This document shows, one piece after another, positions 1,889-30,543 of a stretch of DNA of 64,000 nt. This DNA comes from Nitrospirota bacterium (GTDB lineage Bacteria > Nitrospirota > Thermodesulfovibrionia > UBA6902 > JAJYJJ01). A program made the translations under genes and the position numbers. The stretch covers positions 1 to 64,000 of the forward strand of contig JAJYJJ010000001.1 of the NCBI GenBank assembly GCA_021789595.1, written 5' to 3'. The notes beneath the pieces were generated by a model. That model had not been told where the DNA came from, did not search any database, and was given only the letters and a program-made list of their open reading frames with translations. The first letter of the stretch is position 1; every line of letters begins with the position of its first letter.

Positions 1889-2548
1889 CTATTTGACTGC
1901 CTCAATGACCTTGTCAACAAAGAGCTTTTCAGGGTACGCCCCCTCGAATTGCACTGATTCGTTTATAACGATCTTAGGAACACTATAGACCTTGTATCTG
2001 GCGGATAATTCAGGGAACTCTATAGCCTCTATGACATCTGCCCTTAGCATCTCGTTTTCCATTGTAAGCTGATGTGCCAGCCGTCCCGCGGCCGGGCAGT
2101 GAGGTCAGGTGGGTGTAACAAAGACCTGTATATGGACTGGTTTTGTTAGACTCCTTACCCTGTCCTTTGTCGTCTCTGTAAGACCTGTCTTTCCGTTGGA
2201 GACATCGATCATAGCCTCTATAATCGTGAAGAATTCATAACCTGTAGGTATCCCGTAAAACCTTATGCCGTAATCCCTATCGCCCTCGATTACGATTGCT
2301 GGAATCCTTTTTATGTCATACTGTTCAACCTTATGTTTATCAGCCGTAAAGTCGTATACCTCGATGGTTACCATGCCTGACAGCGAAGAGATATCCTCGC
2401 ACAATTCCCTTGCCTCCTTGCAGAACTGACATTCAAATTCCTGAGTAAATAATACGAGTTTGACAGGGTTTGTAAGCTTTTCAAGATGTTTTTTTACATA
2501 TTCCCTTTCTTTATCTTTCAGTATTGACATATGCATACTCCTTTCCAA
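1889..2548 (-). CDS. Protein disulfide oxidoreductase (two-Trx-fold, glutaredoxin-like) with in-frame TGA at 2105-2107; probable selenoprotein (TPT-U-PHCP). Start may be 2530.
   Basis: ORF track stops at 2105, but the frame continues 72 codons to TAG at 1889-1891: ...HIQVFVTPT[TGA]PHCPAAGRLAHQLTMENEMLRADVIEAIEFPELSARYKVYSVPKIVINESVQFEGAYPEKLFVDKVIEAVK*. First motif CQFC is intact. The TGA replaces the first Cys of the second CxxC. Confidence 0.88.
2075..2107 (-). promoter_or_regulatory. Candidate bacterial SECIS element directly 3' of the UGA
   Basis: TGA-CCTCAC-TGCC-CG-GCCG-CGGGA-CGGC-T-GGCA: two 4-bp stems around a small internal loop, 5-nt apical loop with G at position 2, loop starts 16 nt after the UGA. 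Confidence 0.75.
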
Positions 2549-2692
2549 GGCTTCGGTATAGTGATAGTATAAGCTGTAGACATACGAAGTTACAAGGGGA
2601 CGAAGGATAGTTTAATCCTTTGGCTTGACTATGGATTATGGGATTAAATAAAATCCATGGACAGACAATAAACGTATAAGGAGGATTTGCAG

Positions 2693-3187
2693 ATGTCCGA
2701 GAAACAGAAGGAATCACTGGAAGAATCCCTGAAAGGTTATAAGGAAAAGATTACGCCTGTCACAAAGGCTACCCTTACGTGGGATAGAGAACTCATCTTT
2801 GTGGGCAGGACCCAACAGGGATATGAAATAGAATTTGATGGACATGTCCAGTGGGGATGCAAACCCACAGACGCATTGCTTTTAAGCCTTGCAGGATGTA
2901 TGGGGATTGATGTGGTGATGTTTCTTCAGAAGATGAAGGTAGATCTGGCAGGTTTCAAGATAGAGATTGTTGGAGAGAGAAACCCAACCCCCCCGCAGTA
3001 TTTTAAGGCGGTTGAGATAATCCTCTATGTTGCCGGCAGAGATATAGATGCCAAGAAGGTAGAACGTGCAGTATCCCTTTCCCACGAAAAGTACTGCTCT
3101 GTCTATAACTCCTTGAGAAAGGATATAGATGTAAGGGTAAAATACATCATTGAAGAAAAAGGGCCAGCAAAAGAGATCAGCGATTAA
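2693..3187 (+). CDS. OsmC-family protein
   Basis: ATG preceded by AAGGAGGATTTGCAG; GCKPTDALLLSLAGCMGIDVV...EKYCSVYNSL. Confidence 0.85.
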   Translation: MSEKQKESLEESLKGYKEKITPVTKATLTWDRELIFVGRTQQGYEIEFDGHVQWGCKPTDALLLSLAGCMGIDVVMFLQKMKVDLAGFKIEIVGERNPTPPQYFKAVEIILYVAGRDIDAKKVERAVSLSHEKYCSVYNSLRKDIDVRVKYIIEEKGPAKEISD

Positions 3188-30444: not shown

Positions 30445-30543
30445 TGGAGAGGGATAGTGGGAATCGAACCCACCAGGCTCCCTTTTTTGGTTCAGCCTGC
30501 ACTGGGTTTGCAGCCCAGGTAAGGCACCAGCCCCTTGTCCCTC
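30445..30543 (-). tRNA. selC-like tRNA with Cys anticodon GCA (tRNA-ReC class), CCA encoded
   Basis: GAGGGACA|A|GGGGC-TGGT-GCCTT|A C|CTGGG-CTGCAAA-CCCAG|TG|CAGGCT-N14-AGCCTG|GTGGG-TTCGATT-CCCAC|TATCCCTC|T|CCA. 8-bp acceptor (one C.A mismatch), 4-nt D-loop, long variable arm, anticodon GCA, discriminator U73. Confidence 0.88.

Follow-up and report, generated by a model that had tools for sequence, protein, structure and literature searches.

The question raised by this locus is whether a UGA codon within a gene for a two-domain protein disulfide oxidoreductase (PDO) of a Nitrospirota bacterium ends translation or is read as selenocysteine (Sec). The gene lies in the window, by which is meant the whole 64,000-nucleotide stretch of DNA analysed, and its features and surroundings are as follows.

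1889..2530, minus strand: Sec-PDO coding sequence of 213 codons, from ATG 2530 to TAG 1891-1889
2420..2431, minus strand: N-terminal active site CQFC, residues 34-37, Cys-based
2096..2107, minus strand: C-terminal active site U-P-H-C, residues 142-145, in the context TPT-U-PHCP
2105..2107, minus strand: in-frame UGA, codon and residue 142, proposed to be read as Sec at the first position of the C-terminal UxxC
2075..2098, minus strand: putative bacterial SECIS hairpin, with lower stem UGCC/GGCA, upper stem GGCCG/CGGCU and loop CGGGA at 2088-2084
2687..3187, plus strand: OsmC/YhfA-family gene, divergent from and adjoining the PDO gene

The Gene, Its Frame and Its Family

The first-pass annotation placed the gene at 1889-2548; the gene itself is real, but the strand had been left unstated and is the minus strand, and its start is better set at ATG 2530, the favoured start codon, which has AGGAG seven nucleotides on its 5' side. 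A plus-strand reading of 1889-2548 was rejected, as it contains many stops and is non-coding. The minus-strand frame holds one UGA, at 2107-2105, and no further damage, and 71 sense codons and a stop follow the UGA. With the UGA taken as a residue, the protein reads MSILKDKEREYVKKHL...EFECQFCKEAREL...VHIQVFVTPT-U-PHCPAAGRLAHQL...SVPKIVINESVQFEGAYPEKLFVDKVIEAVK. Under the bacterial code (table 11) the open reading frame 2105-2548 terminates at this UGA, which accounts for the truncated call ending at 2105 that had been described earlier.

Identification of the product as a PDO, also proposed at first pass, is borne out by NCBIfam model TIGR02187 (protein disulfide oxidoreductase; NCBI short name PDO_seleno_TRX), which matches at 277 bits (cut-off 185) and covers model positions 2-209 of 209. 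Among proteins of solved structure, its best relatives are PDOs from Pyrococcus (1j08 and 1a8l, E ~1e-54), Aquifex and Aeropyrum. End-to-end alignment to 1j08 and 1a8l predicts two thioredoxin-fold units, one carrying CQFC and the other UPHC, and the UGA aligns with the first Cys of the C-terminal CPYC of both Pyrococcus structures. The TGA thus stands at the first Cys of the C-terminal CxxC, as had been suggested, and the homologue alignment agrees with the structures on this point and confirms that the N-terminal CQFC is still Cys-based.

UGA and Cys Across Homologues

The alignment comprised 94 sequences, namely 80 PDO loci taken from named genomes, 13 AhpF/thioredoxin reductase (TrxR)-like fusions from relatives, and the window gene. 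An in-frame stop occurs in nine of these, and in all nine it is TGA. Eight of the nine, the window gene included, carry it at the equivalent of codon 142, while the ninth (L080) carries it at the second Cys of that motif, the C-terminal CxxC. Chance occurrence of the TGA is excluded, since every stop among the homologues is TGA and all fall within one CxxC. The remaining 86 sequences have Cys at the codon 142 equivalent, so that Cys (86) or UGA (the seven other carriers) is found there and no different residue, the outcome that the first-pass annotation had asked of a PDO homologue alignment.

The seven further carriers are five PDOs, from Anaerolineae (L002, L015), Ardenticatenales (L070) and Cloacimonadota (L028, L052), and two AhpF/TrxR-like fusions (L086, L095). 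The fusions come from genomes of the same class as the window and have the UGA at an equivalent C-terminal UPYC site; the nearest neighbour of L095 is L089, which has Cys. On the tree the Sec-type rows are dispersed among Cys proteins, requiring eight changes, at least five of them forced by well supported branches, which, as far as the aligned sequences allow, is the pattern left when Cys and Sec replace each other repeatedly at a single catalytic position. The divergent case, a Chloroflexota PDO (L080:647-1282), has its TGA at the second Cys (TCPY-UGA-Q), and its genome gives a tRNA-Sec match of 46.8 bits, below threshold; because no tRNA-Sec over threshold was found in that genome, L080 may be a disrupted gene, contain an error in its sequence or represent a rare CxxU form. 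A search of 60 relatives gave no stand-alone PDO orthologue above the family cut-off, and for this reason the Sec-PDO gene may have been acquired by transfer.

These comparisons bear on the possibility that the TGA arose through faulty sequencing or assembly, or through a recent nonsense change in a TGC or TGT codon, in what would be an ordinary Cys-PDO or a pseudogene. A single base separates TGC from TGA and the record is one genome, but seven other homologues from different phyla have UGA at exactly the same codon, the frame is otherwise undamaged, a SECIS-type hairpin lies 3' of the UGA, and the genome encodes a full Sec system, all of which makes such an accident very improbable.

Constraint Downstream of the UGA

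On average, the window protein is 50.0% identical to the 80 PDO homologues upstream of the UGA and 50.5% identical downstream of it, and the fractions of differing bases at codon positions 1, 2 and 3 are 0.37, 0.24 and 0.66 before the UGA and 0.39, 0.23 and 0.67 after it. The part past the UGA is coding, under constraint equal to that of the upstream part. The claim that coding continues beyond the UGA therefore holds, and the lack of purifying selection named at first pass as the outcome that would speak against it did not occur.

The same figures weigh on the reading in which the UGA is a true stop and the functional product a truncated protein of 141 residues. That reading accords with the end of the table-11 frame at the UGA, yet the codons beyond are equally conserved and keep a coding type of divergence, and a protein cut short there would lack the active site known to be the most important (PMC7465337); we regard it as extremely unlikely.

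Selenocysteine Machinery and a Sec-Like tRNA in the Window

The genome surveyed (2.23 Mb, 99% complete) contains selA (619 bits) adjoining selB (390 bits) on contig C27, selD (334 bits) on C11, and a canonical tRNA-Sec on C4 with anticodon UCA and G73 (71 bits). The selD gene (L124, G000:C11:110795-111715, minus strand) is a selenoprotein gene in its own right, with an in-frame UGA in the context RAAG-U-AGKLG. For six of the seven further UGA carriers the host genome likewise has a canonical tRNA-Sec; none was found in that of L070, a metagenome-assembled genome that is maybe incomplete. Further TGA-split frames in the window, taken as candidates by length and judged by eye, resemble antisense frames or the ordinary ends of genes, with no second Cys-like motif prominent among them.

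The window also contains a gene with a tRNA-Sec body, found as an Rfam tRNA-Sec match at 30449-30543 on the minus strand, with anticodon GCA (loop CUGCAAA) and U73. It lies 31 nucleotides upstream of yedF and is not reported by ARAGORN, and like tRNAs with GCA and U73 occur in seven of the 60 relatives searched (L167-L173). Its fold has six acceptor pairs, a mismatched step and a 5-bp T-stem, where the selC* criterion is an 8/4 acceptor branch and a bulged A in the T-stem. tRNA-Cys of the selC* type have been described from Nitrospirae and other anaerobes, and in some bacteria carry UCA anticodons (PMC7609411). Given its anticodon GCA and U73, the window gene fits a selC*-type tRNA-Cys, which would not decode UGA. 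Two other roles considered for it were rejected: that of the UGA decoder, in view of its loop CUGCAAA (GCA) and the tRNA-Sec(UCA) on C4, and that of sole tRNA-Cys, an ordinary tRNA-Cys being present on C35.

This tRNA gives rise to the alternative that the UGA of the PDO gene is read as Cys by the window tRNA and not as Sec, an idea that draws on its combination of a tRNA-Sec body with Cys identity features (U73, GCA) and on the existence of UCA-bearing selC* tRNAs (PMC7609411). The GCA anticodon of the window copy, however, does not pair with UGA, the genome has the canonical tRNA-Sec(UCA) with G73, and no second selB above the family cut-off was found in it, so that insertion of Cys by this route is scarcely credible.

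The Hairpin Downstream of the UGA

The SECIS-like hairpin described at first pass, with its CGGGA loop and 16-nucleotide spacing, was recovered on folding as UGCC-c-GGCCG-[CGGGA]-CGGCU-GGCA, with a predicted energy of -13.2 kcal/mol and the loop 16 nucleotides past the UGA. Rules for bacterial SECIS elements call for a loop of 3-9 nucleotides with G in its first two positions, an upper stem of 4-16 bp, a distance of 16-37 nucleotides from the UGA and a minimum free energy of at most -7.5 (PMC13188914), and the hairpin lies within all of them (CGGGA, 5 bp, 16 nucleotides, -13.2). Compared with random 45-mers from the window it ranks in the top 4%, and in the top 1% under SECIS constraints, while 8% of random window positions pass the SECIS rules as background; relative to versions of its own GC-rich stretch with the dinucleotides shuffled it shows no added stability (z -0.29). 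Among the aligned genes, a SECIS-type hairpin follows six of the eight UGA codons, two UGA genes failing the simple test, and is present in 21 of the 86 Cys genes (24%; Fisher p 0.006). Because 24% of the Cys homologues pass the same test, the predicted hairpin is supporting and non-decisive, and taken alone is weak evidence.

Proposed Decoding and Function

Taking together the alignment of the UGA with Cys, the homologues with UGA at the same codon, the conservation downstream and the full Sec machinery, with the hairpin adding little by itself, the UGA at 2107-2105 is almost certainly decoded as Sec and the gene, judged from its sequence, encodes a genuine selenoprotein. The gene, its family, the position of its UGA, its conservation and the accompanying machinery are computed directly from the DNA. 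We put at about 0.95 the probability of the full reading, in which a TIGR02187 PDO has its UGA translated as Sec by SelB and Sec-tRNA-Sec(UCA), aided by the hairpin, and acts as a 213-residue thiol/selenol-disulfide reductase with UPHC as its main site.

For the actual insertion of Sec, the direction of the reaction, the reductant and the substrates, we infer the following scheme. SelA and SelD would make Sec-tRNA-Sec(UCA), and SelB would deliver Sec at the UGA, assisted by the hairpin just 3' of it. The product would be a reductase of two thioredoxin folds whose main attacking site is the UPHC of the second domain. There Sec would act as the nucleophile and Cys145 would resolve the selenenyl-sulfide bond, and the CQFC of the first domain would cooperate with UPHC. 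From general selenol chemistry, Sec would be expected to be the more reactive nucleophile, ionised at lower pH. In Sulfolobus PDO the main thiol-transferase site is the C-terminal CxxC (PMC7465337), isomerase activity requires both sites, and electrons pass from NADPH through thioredoxin reductase to PDO, for example in the recharging of peroxiredoxins (PMC7465337; PMC7278568). Thioredoxin reductase would similarly re-reduce the Sec-PDO.

The adjoining OsmC/YhfA-family gene makes a peroxide-related role for the PDO together with OsmC plausible. OsmC genes lie near PDO at five further loci, L022, L050, L070 (Chloroflexota), L064 (Bacteroidota) and L068, of which only L070 has the UGA; at L050 and L070 the OsmC/YhfA-family genes form tandem pairs. 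The more specific proposal, that Sec-PDO and OsmC would work as a pair dedicated to peroxide removal, Sec-PDO recharging OsmC, in an arrangement recurrent in other phyla, is considered unlikely.

Relationship to Known Systems

Two reviews include TIGR02187 with UxxC among the prokaryotic selenoprotein families, giving Kryukov and Gladyshev (2004) as its source, under the label 'Homolog of AhpF N-terminal domain (Grx-like domain protein)' with ABB15282.1 as the example (PMC13188914; PMC9312934). Compared by family and motif, the window gene belongs to the same HMM family, has the same type of UxxC motif, and is another instance and a further member of this catalogued selenoprotein family, known since 2004. 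As that family is already listed, the finding is correct yet not of a new kind, and knowledge of selenoproteins is unchanged by it; what it adds is a clear stand-alone Sec-PDO in a mostly Cys-based family, from a gene that standard ORF calling cuts at residue 141.

The Cys-type PDOs of Pyrococcus (1a8l, 1j08), Aquifex (2ywm, 2ayt), Aeropyrum (2hls) and Sulfolobus are alike in their two thioredoxin folds, the presence of both CxxC sites and full-length alignment, whereas here the first Cys of the C-terminal site is replaced by Sec and PYC by PHC. The AhpF/TrxR-like fusions (TIGR03143 AhpF_homolog type; L086, L095) share the PDO module and the position of the UGA, but in them the N-terminal PDO module is joined to a flavin reductase domain, whereas the window PDO stands alone. 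With bacterial Sec-thioredoxin and Sec-glutaredoxin the redox logic of UxxC is held in common, although those are single-domain proteins.
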